Origin: a virus
Virus record (IMG/VR): IMGVR_UViG_3300017917_002031
Location: 1 to 25,797 of that record
DNA length: 25,797 bases
Strand: one strand, 5' to 3'
The translations under genes were made by a program, and so were the position numbers. Shown piece by piece: positions 4,862-21,830 of this stretch (its first letter is position 1; each line of letters starts with the position of its first letter). The notes under the pieces were generated by a model. The model ran no database searches. It was not told the DNA's origin and saw nothing but the letters and a program-made list of their open reading frames with translations.

Positions 4862-5461
4862 TTAATTGTCATTTGTAAACTTTACACCATTATTATAAAG
4901 TTCTATGTAATCGTAAACCATTATGACTGCAAACATATTTAATGCATTTGGATTATTCATGCTAAAGCTTATTGGCTGAATTGATGATGGCCAGCAACCT
5001 TGTAAAACAAAAGATTTTAAAGGAGCGGTATTTTCACCATTTAGTCCCAAATGATATATTGTCCAGTTTGTTGCCTTATAAAGCGCACTATCTACCGTGC
5101 TTGACGTAGCTCCCTGCTTAAACGAAATGTTTGTATGATTATCATTTATGGCGTTTTGCCATGCATGAAATTTTTTCCAAAGATTTCCCGAATCTGTGCT
5201 ATCATCCAAAACAGTAAAAGACCATGTGCCATAATCTTTTTCTCCAGGATAATAATATTTTCTACCAAAATAATCATAAGACTGAGATTTTGTAGAAAGT
5301 TGTGGTATCTGTGTAGATCTTACATGAAATTTAGTAAATGCTGCACTTTGAGCTACACTATTGGCGGGTGTAGTAAAAGATGGAATATTACCTTCAATGT
5401 AAAAACGATTTGCGCGAGTACCGCCGTTAAATCGTGTTTTAAAATTAGTAATTGGTTCCAT
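4862..5461 (-). CDS. Second tail tube protein, gp19 paralogue
   Basis: This 199-residue protein is homologous to the tail tube protein encoded next to it: both begin with ITNFK, two variable residues, then FNGGTRANR. Family features continue with YYYPGEKDYGTWSFTVLDDS (gp19 has a GDR...WTVTV block here), WKKFHAWQNAI and the C-terminal GCWPSSIQPISFSM followed by NPNALNMFAVIMVYDYIE, which matches the gp19 GLWP and final strand. It is somewhat longer than T4 gp19 (163) and is inserted between gp19 and portal, where T4 has nothing. It has its own AGGGAAT about 9 bases before the ATG and follows its paralogue by 3 bases. It may be a minor tube subunit, a tube-end protein or the main tube protein itself; the sequence does not decide between these. 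Confidence 0.85.
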   Translation of the reverse strand: MEPITNFKTRFNGGTRANRFYIEGNIPSFTTPANSVAQSAAFTKFHVRSTQIPQLSTKSQSYDYFGRKYYYPGEKDYGTWSFTVLDDSTDSGNLWKKFHAWQNAINDNHTNISFKQGATSSTVDSALYKATNWTIYHLGLNGENTAPLKSFVLQGCWPSSIQPISFSMNNPNALNMFAVIMVYDYIELYNNGVKFTNDN

Positions 5462-18600: not shown

Positions 18601-19023
18601 ATGGCATACAAAACCAAATATTTACCAAAAAATCCTAAAAAATATGTTGGTGATGTATCATCAATAACATGTCGTTCTTTGTGGGAAAGACATGTTTGTA
18701 AATTTTTAGATGAAAACAATCAAATAACAAAATGGTCATCCGAAGAAATAGCCATACCTTATTACAGTCCACTTGATAAAAAAATACACAACTATTATCC
18801 AGATTTTTTAATTGAAATGACAAATAATAATCAAAAAGAAGTATGGATGGTTGAAATAAAACCAAAGAAACAAACATATTTAAAAGAAAATGCATCCAAA
18901 AAAGAAGTAGCAACGTGGATTATTAATACGGCTAAATGGAATGCTGCAAAAGCATATTGTGATAAAAATGGTATGCAATTTAAAATTTTAACAGAAAAAG
19001 AACTTTTTTCAAATGCCAAATAA
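18601..19023 (+). CDS. 4: Head completion protein gp4 (T4 gp50/gp4), PD-(D/E)xK fold
   Basis: This acts after DNA packaging to make the head competent for tail joining. The start MAYKTKYLPKNPKKYVGD matches T4 MAYSGKWVPKNISKYRGD, so the ATG at 18601 is secure. Further matches are ITCRSLWERHVCKFLDEN (T4 ITYRSNWEKFFFEWLD), IPYYSPLDKKIHNYYPDF and the catalytic-type EIKPKKQT. This has the layout of a TnsA/PD-(D/E)xK nuclease: E29 in the helix, D68 in YPDF, and E85 and K87 in VEIKPKK. The closing NTAKWNAAKAYCDKNGMQFK ILTEKEL also matches T4. The 140 residues are close to T4 (150). It opens a plus-strand operon and its 3' end overlaps the next gene by 11 bases. Confidence 0.95.
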   Translation: MAYKTKYLPKNPKKYVGDVSSITCRSLWERHVCKFLDENNQITKWSSEEIAIPYYSPLDKKIHNYYPDFLIEMTNNNQKEVWMVEIKPKKQTYLKENASKKEVATWIINTAKWNAAKAYCDKNGMQFKILTEKELFSNAK

Positions 19024-19561
19024 TACAATAACAACCATTAAAGATTATTTTTCAAGACATGGCGGTCTTCAAAGAAACAATCGCTATCAAGTATATTTTG
19101 AAAATTTACCTTCTAGTATTGGATTGGGAGATAGTTCAGAAATTCAAGCACTGAATGTAACTCTTGGTGCAAGAGCAATTGATGCCGTGGCAGATAATCT
19201 TACCGGTTATGGACCAGGAAGAGCTATACCAAGAGCTCAAAAATTTGTCGGTGGAGTATTTTTAGCTTTTCCAGTTACAAACGATAACCACATAACTAAA
19301 TTATTCAACAATTGGTTTAATATACTTTATTCTGGTTATAGACAAGGAAACAATTTTTTAACCAATTACTATGATACTGTTGTAAAAAATACAAATATGG
19401 TTGTCCAATTGTTAGATCCAAATGGTGATGTAAATACTACATTTAAATTTTTTGAAGTGTATCCACTTGAAACTCAAACATTTGAATTTACAATGATGAG
19501 AAACAATGAATATTCTGTGTATCAGGTGTTGATGAATTACCGTGAATTTACTCAAGCATAA
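19013..19561 (+). CDS. Tail tube-fold protein, putative gp54 tube initiator
   Basis: This 182-residue protein has a tube-type N-terminus: ITTIKDYFSRHGGLQRNNRY QVYFENLP, comparable with ITNFK..FNGGTRANR(Y/F) in the two gp19-like proteins of this window. Further features are the RAIPRAQKFVGGVFLAFPVT strand pair, a NWFNILYSGYRQGNNFLTNY YDT helix-loop, and a FKFFEVYPLETQTFEFTMMR ending that corresponds to the GxWP..(L/I) region and last strand of gp19. In T4 gp48 and gp54 share the tube fold and start tube assembly at the baseplate. Since gp48 is encoded divergently nearby and gp26 follows, gp54 is the best guess; a third tube subunit is the alternative. The start lies inside gp4 with no ribosome binding site, suggesting coupling. 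Confidence 0.62.
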   Translation: MPNNTITTIKDYFSRHGGLQRNNRYQVYFENLPSSIGLGDSSEIQALNVTLGARAIDAVADNLTGYGPGRAIPRAQKFVGGVFLAFPVTNDNHITKLFNNWFNILYSGYRQGNNFLTNYYDTVVKNTNMVVQLLDPNGDVNTTFKFFEVYPLETQTFEFTMMRNNEYSVYQVLMNYREFTQA

Positions 19562-19571
19562 GGAATAAATT

Positions 19572-20228
19572 ATGATTGAATCTTTATCAAATCTTTTGCC
19601 AACTTACTCAACCACGCTTCCTTTTAGTAAACAAAAAGTGGATTTTACTCCATTTAAAGTAAAAGATGCAAAAAATATTTCTATAGTATTACAAGAAGAT
19701 AATAAAAAATTATCATTGATGTCTATGATTGGTGTATTAAAAAATTGCGTCAAAGACATTTCATTAAACGAATTGTGTTTGGCGGATGCTGAGTTTTTAT
19801 TTTTACAAATAAGATCAAAAAGCATAGAAGAATTTGTCATTCTTGTTTTTAACGAAAATAAAACAAAATTAAACATAAACGACATAAAAACAAAAAATAC
19901 CATTTCCACAAAACAAATTAAAATTGGAAAAGATATAACTGTTTTTTTGGAAACCCCAAAAATTAAAGATTTGATGGTTTTGGATACATTGGACAAAGAT
20001 GATATAATAAAATCCTGCATTAAAAAAATATCAGTACGGAATGAAATATACGAAGTAAATAAATTTATTCCAACTGAATTTAAAAATATGATAGATAATC
20101 TTCCAATTTCTTTTATAATGGAAGTAGAAGAATTTTTAAAAACTCAACCAGAACTATATGTTGAAATTGAATTCAACAATGAAAAAAAGGAGGTCTCTGG
20201 TATTTTAAATTTTTTTACTTATCGGTGA
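19572..20228 (+). CDS. 26: Baseplate hub assembly protein gp26
   Basis: This is a T4 gp26-family protein (baseplate hub assembly). Key region: VDFTPFKVKDAKNISIVLQE, then SLMSMIGVLKNCVKDISLNE LCLADAEFLFLQIRSKSIEE (the family's 'L.PF..K.EK.L..A.......I...I..CI...D...LP..D.E.LFL.IR.KS.GE'), and a long helical/strand C-terminus ending SGILNFFTYR. At 218 residues it is close to T4 gp26 (208). AAGGAAT lies about 7 bases upstream of the ATG. The same N-terminal layout is shared by tail assembly chaperones of simpler phages. The last 15 codons overlap an open -1 frame that carries a frameshift signal, so a longer fusion with the next ORF is predicted. Confidence 0.85.
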   Translation: MIESLSNLLPTYSTTLPFSKQKVDFTPFKVKDAKNISIVLQEDNKKLSLMSMIGVLKNCVKDISLNELCLADAEFLFLQIRSKSIEEFVILVFNENKTKLNINDIKTKNTISTKQIKIGKDITVFLETPKIKDLMVLDTLDKDDIIKSCIKKISVRNEIYEVNKFIPTEFKNMIDNLPISFIMEVEEFLKTQPELYVEIEFNNEKKEVSGILNFFTYR

Positions 20229-20269
20229 AATTTTTTGACTTGTTTGATTATTATAAAACAAATTTCACC
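20187..20269 (+). promoter_or_regulatory. Predicted programmed -1 ribosomal frameshift signal at the end of gp26
   Basis: In order: AAGGAGG at 20187-20193, within gp26 and with no start codon at a useful distance. Next is the slippery heptamer T_TTA_AAT at 20204-20210, in the gp26 frame and 10 bases after the SD-like element (the dnaX spacing). It is followed at once by T_TTT_TTT at 20210-20216, also in frame. A 7-base spacer (20217-20223) leads to a perfect 10-bp stem, GGTGAAATTT at 20224-20233 with AAATTTCACC at 20260-20269 and a 26-base loop. The -1 frame is open from 20183 (after TGA at 20180) to 20413, so a -1 shift at either heptamer gives gp26 residues 1-215 joined to 66 further residues, 281 in all. 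All elements are read directly; use in vivo is inferred. Confidence 0.72.
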
Positions 20270-20416
20270 TTAATAAATAATTTTTCTTGGAGATTGGAAG
20301 AACTTGAAAACATGTTATTCTGGGAAAGAGAAATTTATATTAAACTATTAAATGATTATAACGAAGAAGAGCGAATGAAGCGAATTCAACAAGAACAACA
20401 AGGGATGTTGATGTAA
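20225..20416 (+). CDS. Short -1 frame ORF after gp26, probable frameshift extension (tail assembly chaperone-like)
   Basis: The 63 residues from the GTG include LEELENMLFWEREIYIKLLN DYNEEERMKRIQQE, a helix with a W-x-R-E core typical of the T-part of tail assembly chaperone fusions; by position it could also be compared with T4 gp51, which follows gene 26. The GTG has no ribosome binding site, lies inside the predicted 10-bp stem and overlaps the gp26 stop (GTGA), so independent initiation looks weak. In the same frame the reading extends upstream through TAC TTA TCG into the slippery region. I therefore expect it to be made mainly as the C-terminal part of a 281-residue gp26 fusion. The stop (TAA) overlaps the next ATG. 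Confidence 0.72.
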   Translation: MKFFDLFDYYKTNFTLINNFSWRLEELENMLFWEREIYIKLLNDYNEEERMKRIQQEQQGMLM

Positions 20417-20946
20417 TGGAAAATAACCAAAAACTAGATTCTGGATTCAAATTAGACGTAACAGCAGATACATCTAAACAAACTACTAATATAGATGCAC
20501 CAGAAATTTTACCAAGTTCTTTTATATTCAAAGTAAATGATGTAAAAGCTCCGGATTCACACTATTATCAATTTCATTCACATGAACAGTTACCACAGTC
20601 TGCCTTAGTGGAATTTCAAAATTCTATTCAATTACCAGAACAAAAGTTATTTAATTTTAAAGAAGAAAAGATAAAAGTTGAAACACAAACATCAAAATCA
20701 TTGTTGAATGAAAAAAATGTTCAACTTAAAGTAAACCCAGAAGATGCTTTAAAAAAAGCAAACCAAATTGGTAAAAATTTAGACGCTGTTAAAAAAGATT
20801 TAGAAAATTTATCTCAAAATATGAGATATCCGGACAACAGAACAAACACTAGAGACAATTATGATGAAACTGTTACAATTCCGGCTGCAAACACAATATT
20901 TGAAAATAGAAAAACAAAAATGATAAAATATCCTGACTGGATATGA
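20416..20946 (+). CDS. Unknown protein ending the gp4-gp26 operon
   Basis: This 176-residue protein has no family I recognise. The first 95 residues are polar and low in hydrophobic residues (LDVTADTSKQTTNIDAPEI, FHSHEQLPQSALVEFQNSIQ). A helical stretch with coiled-coil potential follows at about 110-135 (NPEDALKKANQIGKNLDAVKK DLENLSQ). The C-terminus is short and conserved-looking, TIPAANTIFENRKTKMIKYP DWI. No Cys is present. It starts by TAATG overlap with the preceding ORF and ends at the bidirectional terminator, so it belongs to the gp26 transcript. A role in hub assembly or as a small structural component is possible only by association. Confidence 0.8.
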   Translation: MENNQKLDSGFKLDVTADTSKQTTNIDAPEILPSSFIFKVNDVKAPDSHYYQFHSHEQLPQSALVEFQNSIQLPEQKLFNFKEEKIKVETQTSKSLLNEKNVQLKVNPEDALKKANQIGKNLDAVKKDLENLSQNMRYPDNRTNTRDNYDETVTIPAANTIFENRKTKMIKYPDWI

Positions 20947-20971
20947 AAAAGGCCCCATAAGGGGCCTTTTT
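20946..20971. terminator. Bidirectional rho-independent terminator
   Basis: AAAAAGGCCCC-ATAA-GGGGCCTTTTT: a 6-bp GC stem (20951-20956 with 20961-20966), a 4-base loop and A5/T5 flanks, symmetric so that it works in both directions. It lies between the ends of the converging plus-strand gp4-gp26 operon and the minus-strand gp32 gene. It is the only strong terminator I found in the window. Confidence 0.95.
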
Positions 20972-20972
20972 C

Positions 20973-21830
20973 TTAGTCATTCTCCATTTCGGAGAAGTAC
21001 TTTAGAGGATCCTTTTCCTCCACTTCCTCATTAGCAACCGGATCTTCGTTTACATCATCCTCAATCGTCTTCTCTGTAAACTGGGCTCGGATATCGTCAC
21101 CAGTTGCCTTCTTAAGACGAGCCTGAAGCTCCTCAAAGCTCTTGAACTGGCTCTTATCAGTAAACTCCCGAAGAGAATACTGCTTCTTCCAAAGCTCCTC
21201 AAGCTTCTTGTCCTCACCACCAAAAAGTGGTGCCGGAGCTGCAAACTCAGAACGATCATAGTTGACATAACCACCGACATTACGAATCTTGATCTTGAAG
21301 TCTGCTCCCGTCCAGAAGTTGAACGGATCAACTGCAACCTCATCCTGGTACTCTGGGTGAGCCAATCCCTGGATCTTCTGGAAGATCTTTGTACCGTACT
21401 GGTAGAGGAAGTTCTTGCCCTTATTTTCCGGATTGGCTGGATCTTCTAGAACAAGGATGTTTGAAATATAAGTCAACTTACGCTTACGGTTACGAGCAAT
21501 GTTCTTGTCATCCTCGATTCCGCTATTCCAAAGTTCAGTGTTGGCCTGACAAATTGGGCACTTCTCACCAAGCGTAGTGGGGCAGTTTTCAAATAGCCAA
21601 CCACCCTTTCCCTTGAACGCATGGCTGTAAACTGCAACAAACGGGGCATCCTCGCCCTCAATCTCTGGCAGAAAACGAATTACTGCGTAACCGTTTCCTG
21701 ACTTGTCGATACCCGGCTTCCAAAGCCGGTCATCCTTGTAACTGTCCTTGGAGTTCATCTTATCAAGACGCTCCGAAAGATTTGCGACTGAGTTCTTACT
21801 CTTCTTCTTAAAATCTGAAAAACTTGCCAT
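20973..21830 (-). CDS. 32: Single-stranded DNA-binding protein gp32
   Basis: This coats ssDNA in replication, recombination and repair. N-terminal B-domain: basic KKKSKNS (8-14), comparable with the T4 LAST motif for cooperativity. Core: zinc site H70, C83, C91, C94 in SHAFKGKGGWLFENCPTTLG EKCPIC, matching T4 H64, C77, C87, C90; then ARNRKRKLTYISNILVLEDP and NPENKGKNFLYQYGTKIFQK, an OB-fold region, and FNFWTGADFKIKIRNVGGY. The C-terminal 30 residues are acidic (protein-interaction A-domain). At 285 residues it is near T4 (301). Codon use is unlike the neighbours, with many AAG, CTC and CTT codons, in keeping with high expression. It has a sigma70-type promoter and a hairpin in the leader. Confidence 0.97.
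   Translation of the reverse strand: MASFSDFKKKSKNSVANLSERLDKMNSKDSYKDDRLWKPGIDKSGNGYAVIRFLPEIEGEDAPFVAVYSHAFKGKGGWLFENCPTTLGEKCPICQANTELWNSGIEDDKNIARNRKRKLTYISNILVLEDPANPENKGKNFLYQYGTKIFQKIQGLAHPEYQDEVAVDPFNFWTGADFKIKIRNVGGYVNYDRSEFAAPAPLFGGEDKKLEELWKKQYSLREFTDKSQFKSFEELQARLKKATGDDIRAQFTEKTIEDDVNEDPVANEEVEEKDPLKYFSEMEND

Follow-up and report, generated by a model that had tools for sequence, protein, structure and literature searches.

A putative dnaX-like -1 frameshift signal at the end of a T4-type gp26 gene in an environmental phage clade

Tail assembly chaperone genes have reportedly been identified in T4-like phages by Vladimirov, Gautam and Davidson (Virology 2022), whose abstract is said to describe a frameshift for several groups of T4-like phages and, for T4, two separate genes (26 and 51). 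In phage lambda the slippery heptamer is G_GGA_AAG, and in E. coli dnaX the internal Shine-Dalgarno (SD) sequence lies 10 nt from the heptamer. A 2016 review described the lambda-type G-T frameshift as conserved in long-tailed phages 'except T4' (PMC5009743). In its account of the 2022 paper, PMC10885494 says that some T4-like phages carry a short gene and a fused long gene and use no frameshift, and a passage of PMC12846349 notes that TAC-N genes in T4-like phages are known to have poly-T slippery sequences as their -1 signals. A preliminary description of the DNA analysed here had treated a connection of T4 hub-assembly proteins with tail chaperones as new; we dropped this idea of a first link between gp26 and the tail chaperones, as the passages of both papers that cite the 2022 work place it in that year. 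A frameshifted chaperone in T4-like phages is, then, already published, and what appears to be new is the clade, hitherto undescribed, and its three-part signal of the dnaX type, the hairpin of which has a 3' arm that is swapped between lineages. In the open-access literature searched, we found no description of nucleotide-level conservation of an internal SD together with a stem that swaps one arm.

The window, that is, the whole stretch of DNA analysed (25,797 nt), is a 25.8-kb virus record of a T4-type myovirus (IMG/VR IMGVR_UViG_3300017917_002031), with T4-type family matches to portal, tail sheath, baseplate, gp32 and late-regulator genes. Among cultured phages, the portal proteins nearest to that of the window belong to cyanophages and Pelagibacter phage Mosig and are ~49% identical to it, and the nearest cultured relatives of the window's clade share 26-29% identity in gp26. 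Scanning IMG/VR with gp26 yielded 70 loci with 46-70% identity across the protein, and an alignment query added more, to 26%. The named phages S-B68, S-CRM01, ACG-2014b, Ochrobactrum OC, Sinorhizobium phiM7, Vibrio D482, Agrobacterium Atu_ph04, Rhizobium RL2RES, KVP40-type V09, HTVC008M and P-SSM2 were also included. The features of the locus are listed in Table 1.

Table 1. Coordinates of the putative frameshift signal and the coding regions around it, in positions of the window.
Feature	Position	Strand	Evidence
gp19-like tail tube protein, directly upstream of gp26	19013..19561	+	PHROG 45 (E=5e-10); PF06841 (E=9e-4, below cut-off)
gp26-like gene, TAC-N short form, 218 aa, stop TGA 20226-20228	19572..20228	+	PF12322, PHROG 150, AF2 model
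SD-like AAGGAGGT, 15-16 nt upstream of the slip heptamer, not followed by a start codon; probable stimulator	20187..20194	+	GAG conservation
Slippery heptamer T_TTT_TTT, in phase with gp26	20210..20216	+	53/53 clade junctions; T_TTT_TT(C/T/A/G) in 67/67 other T4-like junctions
TAC-C, predicted gp51 C-terminal part, -1 frame, 66 codons post-slip, stop TAA 20414-20416	20216..20416	+	PHROG 634, PHROG 150 end, HMM frame
Stem 5' arm, 7 nt past the heptamer, overlapping the gp26 stop and the GTG	20224..20233	+	Pairing in 27 relatives; recoding test
Stem 3' arm; the L029-L066 lineage has a nearer arm instead	20260..20269	+	Pairing and topology comparisons

The preliminary description had placed two slippery heptamers in phase with gp26, of which T_TTT_TTT (20210-20216) is the sole conserved one. 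It was found in 53 of the 53 distinct junctions of the window's clade, and all 67 distant T4-like junctions carried an in-phase relative of it (53 TTTTTTC, 12 TTTTTTT, one TTTTTTA and one TTTTTTG), so that T_TTT_TTN is in phase in 120/120 distinct junctions. In the intact junctions it always lay 7-31 nt upstream of the gp26 stop; counted by gene, it was present within the last 31 nt of 116/116 distinct gp26 genes. Among other distinct ORFs of at least 100 aa from the same loci, 8 of 804 (~1%) had an in-phase T6 in their last 31 nt, and none combined T6 with a -1 extension that reached 50 codons, five apparent exceptions having been identified as gp26 of loci L151-L155. Matches to an HMM of the C-terminal domain fell in the -1 frame in 144 of 144 cases. 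The site, its frame, its conservation, the homology, the missing starts and the stem covariation were all read in silico; the occurrence of the shift and its efficiency are inferred. We give a probability of about 0.92 that T_TTT_TTT is, in comparative terms, a genuine site of programmed -1 frameshifting. The other heptamer, T_TTA_AAT (20204-20210), is indeed in phase and 10 nt past the SD-like element, but it recurs in only 6/53 clade junctions and in 0/67 elsewhere, and was rejected as a second slip site.

RNA polymerase, rather than the ribosome, could slip on the T7 homopolymer, which lies within an AT-rich genome, and mRNAs of changed length would then bring the C-terminal domain into frame; slippage of polymerase on long A/T runs is known, and both mechanisms are treated in PMC5009743. 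However, in 55 of the 67 distant junctions the run is six T's long and the next base is C, A or G, which is the tandem-codon pattern of ribosomal slippage, the run is always in codon phase, and the conserved SD-like element and 3' stem act on ribosomes. We regard polymerase slippage as extremely unlikely. The run could, alternatively, be the coding trace of a conserved Phe-Phe, with a stem formed by chance and with the 63-aa downstream ORF (ORF63) as a decayed or unexpressed remnant, given that the genome is AT-rich and that TTT is the usual Phe codon (266 TTT vs 27 TTC in gp26 bodies). Highly divergent phages, however, conserve the protein encoded in the -1 frame, all 120 junctions have the heptamer in phase and the stem has compensatory changes; conservation thus appears to have largely refuted the remnant already, and we find it hardly credible.

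The -1 frame of the window is open from 20183, as first described. This open stretch, which takes in both heptamers and the SD-like element, is not needed: in 7/53 clade relatives a -1 stop stands beside the T-run; the same is seen in 3/67 other junctions. Since these stops touch the heptamer, the frame must be entered at the heptamer or downstream of it. ORF63 could instead be a separate gene, started at GTG 20225 by coupling with the gp26 stop that it overlaps (GTGA). TAATG-type overlaps are known in other phages, and in the distant groups an ATG or GTG lies no more than 36 nt from the slip site at 53 of 63 junctions; it often overlaps the stop, and annotators begin gp51 there. The GTG of the window, however, is a by-product of its TGA stop; the usual clade stop, TAA, gives GTA, and an ATG or GTG within 36 nt past the slip site was found in just 9/53 clade junctions. 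It also lies inside the 5' arm of the stem, as had been pointed out, and would be sequestered there. The first start codon of HTVC008M comes 60 nt after the slip site, past conserved residues, and ACG-2014b has none near the junction. Moreover, a separate gene leaves unexplained both the invariant in-phase heptamer and the open -1 codons before the GTG. Relatives, the comparison that the preliminary description had called for, all keep the in-phase site and the -1 extension, most of those in the clade without a start. GTG 20225, absent from most relatives, was rejected as an independent start, and we consider a separate gene very unlikely. Coupled initiation may be an addition to the frameshift in the distant groups, where nearby starts are frequent.

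The SD-like AAGGAGG at 20187-20193 had been located correctly. The Glu codon within its AGGAGG is GAG in 51/52 clade junctions, compared with 86/760 (11%) in the gp26 body, and a set of representatives agreed (29/30). Judged by this codon choice, AGGAGG is conserved at the nucleotide level in the clade. In the distant groups a GAGG lies ~9-10 nt upstream of the heptamer and the preference is weaker (GAG in 38/58 vs a background of 32%). The SD-like element probably stimulates the frameshift.

Downstream of the heptamer we confirmed the 7-nt spacer and the perfect 10-bp stem (20224-20233 with 20260-20269), which is more stable than synonymous recodings of the peptide (p=0.01). The 3' stem beats such recodings in 42/52 clade junctions and 41/65 others, as well as in 24 of the 30 representatives. 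Across 27 relatives with the topology of the window, 97.4% of cells are paired, vs 23-66% when the partner is slid. Compensatory changes are seen at columns 18-57 (G-C to A-U) and 21-54 (G-C, G-U and A-U), and one double change ties the second base of the stop codon (TGA/TAA) to a synonymous Phe position of the -1 frame. Another lineage (L029, L038-L040, L043, L048, L057, L062, L065 and L066) has the 5' arm unchanged and a nearer partner for it (CGGTAAGAT-6 nt-ATCTTACCG), giving a loop of 6 nt in the local stem vs 26 nt in the long-range one. When the two topologies were cross-tested, neither fitted the lineage of the other. Five clade lineages (L028, L042, L051, L055 and L068) keep T7, and a significant 3' stem was not found in them, which is a point against the signal as described; in L028 and L051 the gp26 stop is also farther from the slip site (25-31 nt). 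Counted from the first base of the P-site codon, the stem starts at 13 nt in the window and at 11-12 nt in the local form. The dnaX and HIV stems pause ribosomes in vitro at 11-12 nt from the P-site codon (PMC7282821), and we count the 13 nt of the window against the model.

Like the SD-like element, the 3' stem is a likely stimulator of the shift. We lean, by a little, towards a three-part dnaX-like signal as the driver of the shift in this clade, with the 5' arm of the stem kept on the gp26 stop and the 3' arm exchanged between lineages. Under that reading, the exchange of the 3' arm implies that selection holds the ratio of short to long chaperone rather than a given structure, and the swap would serve as a natural experiment in the maintenance of a frameshift level.

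Together, gp26 and the -1 extension would make a long form (TAC-NC) of 281 residues, the length originally given. ORF63 matched PHROG 634, 'baseplate hub assembly catalyst' (gp51), with E=1.2e-15, a profile also matched by residues 147-246 of T4 gp51. Read with the upstream -1 codons, it matched the tail end (231-278 of 282) of PHROG 150, which is the profile of gp26 itself; a match to Pfam DUF6760 was weak (E=0.1). ORF63 matches the profiles of both proteins because T4 gp26 and gp51 are, by their profile coverage, paralogues, a short and a long form. Indeed, PF12322 is matched full-length by T4 gp26 (216 bits) and T4 gp51 (178 bits), and PHROG 150 is covered at 14-235 by gp26 and at 13-280 by gp51, its C-terminal end by gp51 only. 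On this homology ORF63 encodes the C-terminal portion of a protein like gp51, which supports the chaperone reading of the preliminary description. T4 genes 26 and 51 are two separate, divergently oriented genes. The window has a single gene with a -1 extension, in the same domain order as the long form, and it and most other T4-like groups examined would obtain both forms from one gene by frameshifting. AlphaFold2 modelled the extension as a helical hairpin (pLDDT 82, pTM 0.49).

Hundreds of public records of cyanophages, pelagiphages, vibriophages and rhizobiophages list a short gene next to gp26 as 'gp51' or 'hypothetical'; such genes are probably pieces of a single frameshifted protein that has been mis-annotated or missed. 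In HTVC008M, gp51 (L159 1282-1419) is annotated near the internal ATG 60 nt past the slip site, and in ACG-2014b (L074 2188-2371) the C-terminal domain is unannotated and left as an intergenic gap.

The short form itself is homologous in sequence to T4 gp26/gp51: the 218-aa ORF matched Pfam PF12322 T4_baseplate with E=3e-27 and PHROG 150 with E=4e-28. Its AlphaFold2 model had a confident fold (mean pLDDT 90). In the structure search proposed earlier, the fold of gp26 had no significant match in the PDB, where the HK97 tail chaperone (gp13, 2OB9) came at rank 20 (E=1.9, probability 0.30, TM(target) 0.36, not significant). Its matches in a viral model library were T4-type gp26/gp51 and a Citrobacter phage Moon model named 'Tape measure chaperone' (E=2e-4). 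Sequence profiles gave chance matches only against the PDB, and an NCBIfam profile search gave nothing useful. The fold evidence for a chaperone role is therefore weak, and the argument is carried by sequence homology and gene anatomy. The position of gp26 after a tail tube gene is that expected of tail assembly chaperone genes. No tape measure gene was directly downstream in the clade members examined, which counts against a chaperone; in HTVC008M a putative tape measure gene lies two genes downstream. We infer that gp26 here is very likely the short form of a tail assembly chaperone.

After the TAC-C stop comes an ORF of 139-204 aa in the clade members examined (20416-20946 in the window, with a TAATG overlap), preceding gp32, which is on the other strand. 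A family search of this ORF gave no significant match; its conserved place, where other phages have the tape measure gene, suggests a tail-assembly partner. The convergent genes are separated at 20947-20978 by a strong G+C hairpin flanked by T-runs (aaaaaggccccataaggggccttttt), which resembles a bidirectional terminator. The window also encodes at least two tail-tube-like (gp19/PHROG 45) proteins, at 4862-5461 beside the sheath gene and at 19013-19561 beside gp26, and the second copy may be a tube initiator or another specialised copy. At 18601-19023 lies a head-closure protein (gp4-like, PHROG 218) with a clear TnsA-like/PDDEXK endonuclease domain (PF08722, E=2e-21).

In the mechanism that we propose, elongating ribosomes would meet T_TTT_TTT near the end of gp26, while the internal AGGAGG pairs with 16S rRNA behind the ribosome and the hairpin, overlapping the gp26 stop, stands 7 nt ahead; both would probably hold the ribosome or pull it back. 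In a fraction of ribosomes both tRNA-Phe would re-pair one base back and 66 more codons would be read in the -1 frame, yielding the 281-residue TAC-NC with its gp51-type C-terminal helical domain. Unslipped ribosomes would terminate three codons on and yield gp26 (TAC-N). On the model of lambda gpG/gpGT, short and long forms together would coat the tape measure protein and bring in tail-tube subunits.

The likeness to dnaX lies in the combination of an internal SD, a slippery heptamer and a 3' hairpin. The heptamer is A_AAA_AAG in dnaX and T_TTT_TTT in the window, the SD spacing 10 vs 16 nt and the stem spacer 5 vs 7 nt; we count the longer SD spacing against the model, and the dnaX gene and its purpose are unrelated to those of the window. 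The lambda gpG/gpGT system is alike in that the chaperone is extended by a C-terminal domain through a -1 shift at the 3' end of its gene and that the short form dominates. The heptamer differs, however, no sequence homology was detected, and the tape measure gene is not directly next in the window's clade. In phage T4 the proteins are homologous, gp26 being the short and gp51 the long form over PHROG 150; unlike the window, T4 places them in two divergent genes, and therefore needs no frameshift. The closest system is that of the T4-like chaperones of 2022, which, in the papers citing that work, has the same genes, a short gp26 and a long gp51, a poly-T slippery site and, in some phages, two genes. 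The window differs in belonging to an environmental clade with its nearest cultured relatives at 26-29% gp26 identity, and would add to the T4-like phages with frameshifted tail chaperones a well-defined environmental clade for which the comparative evidence of a functional site is strong.
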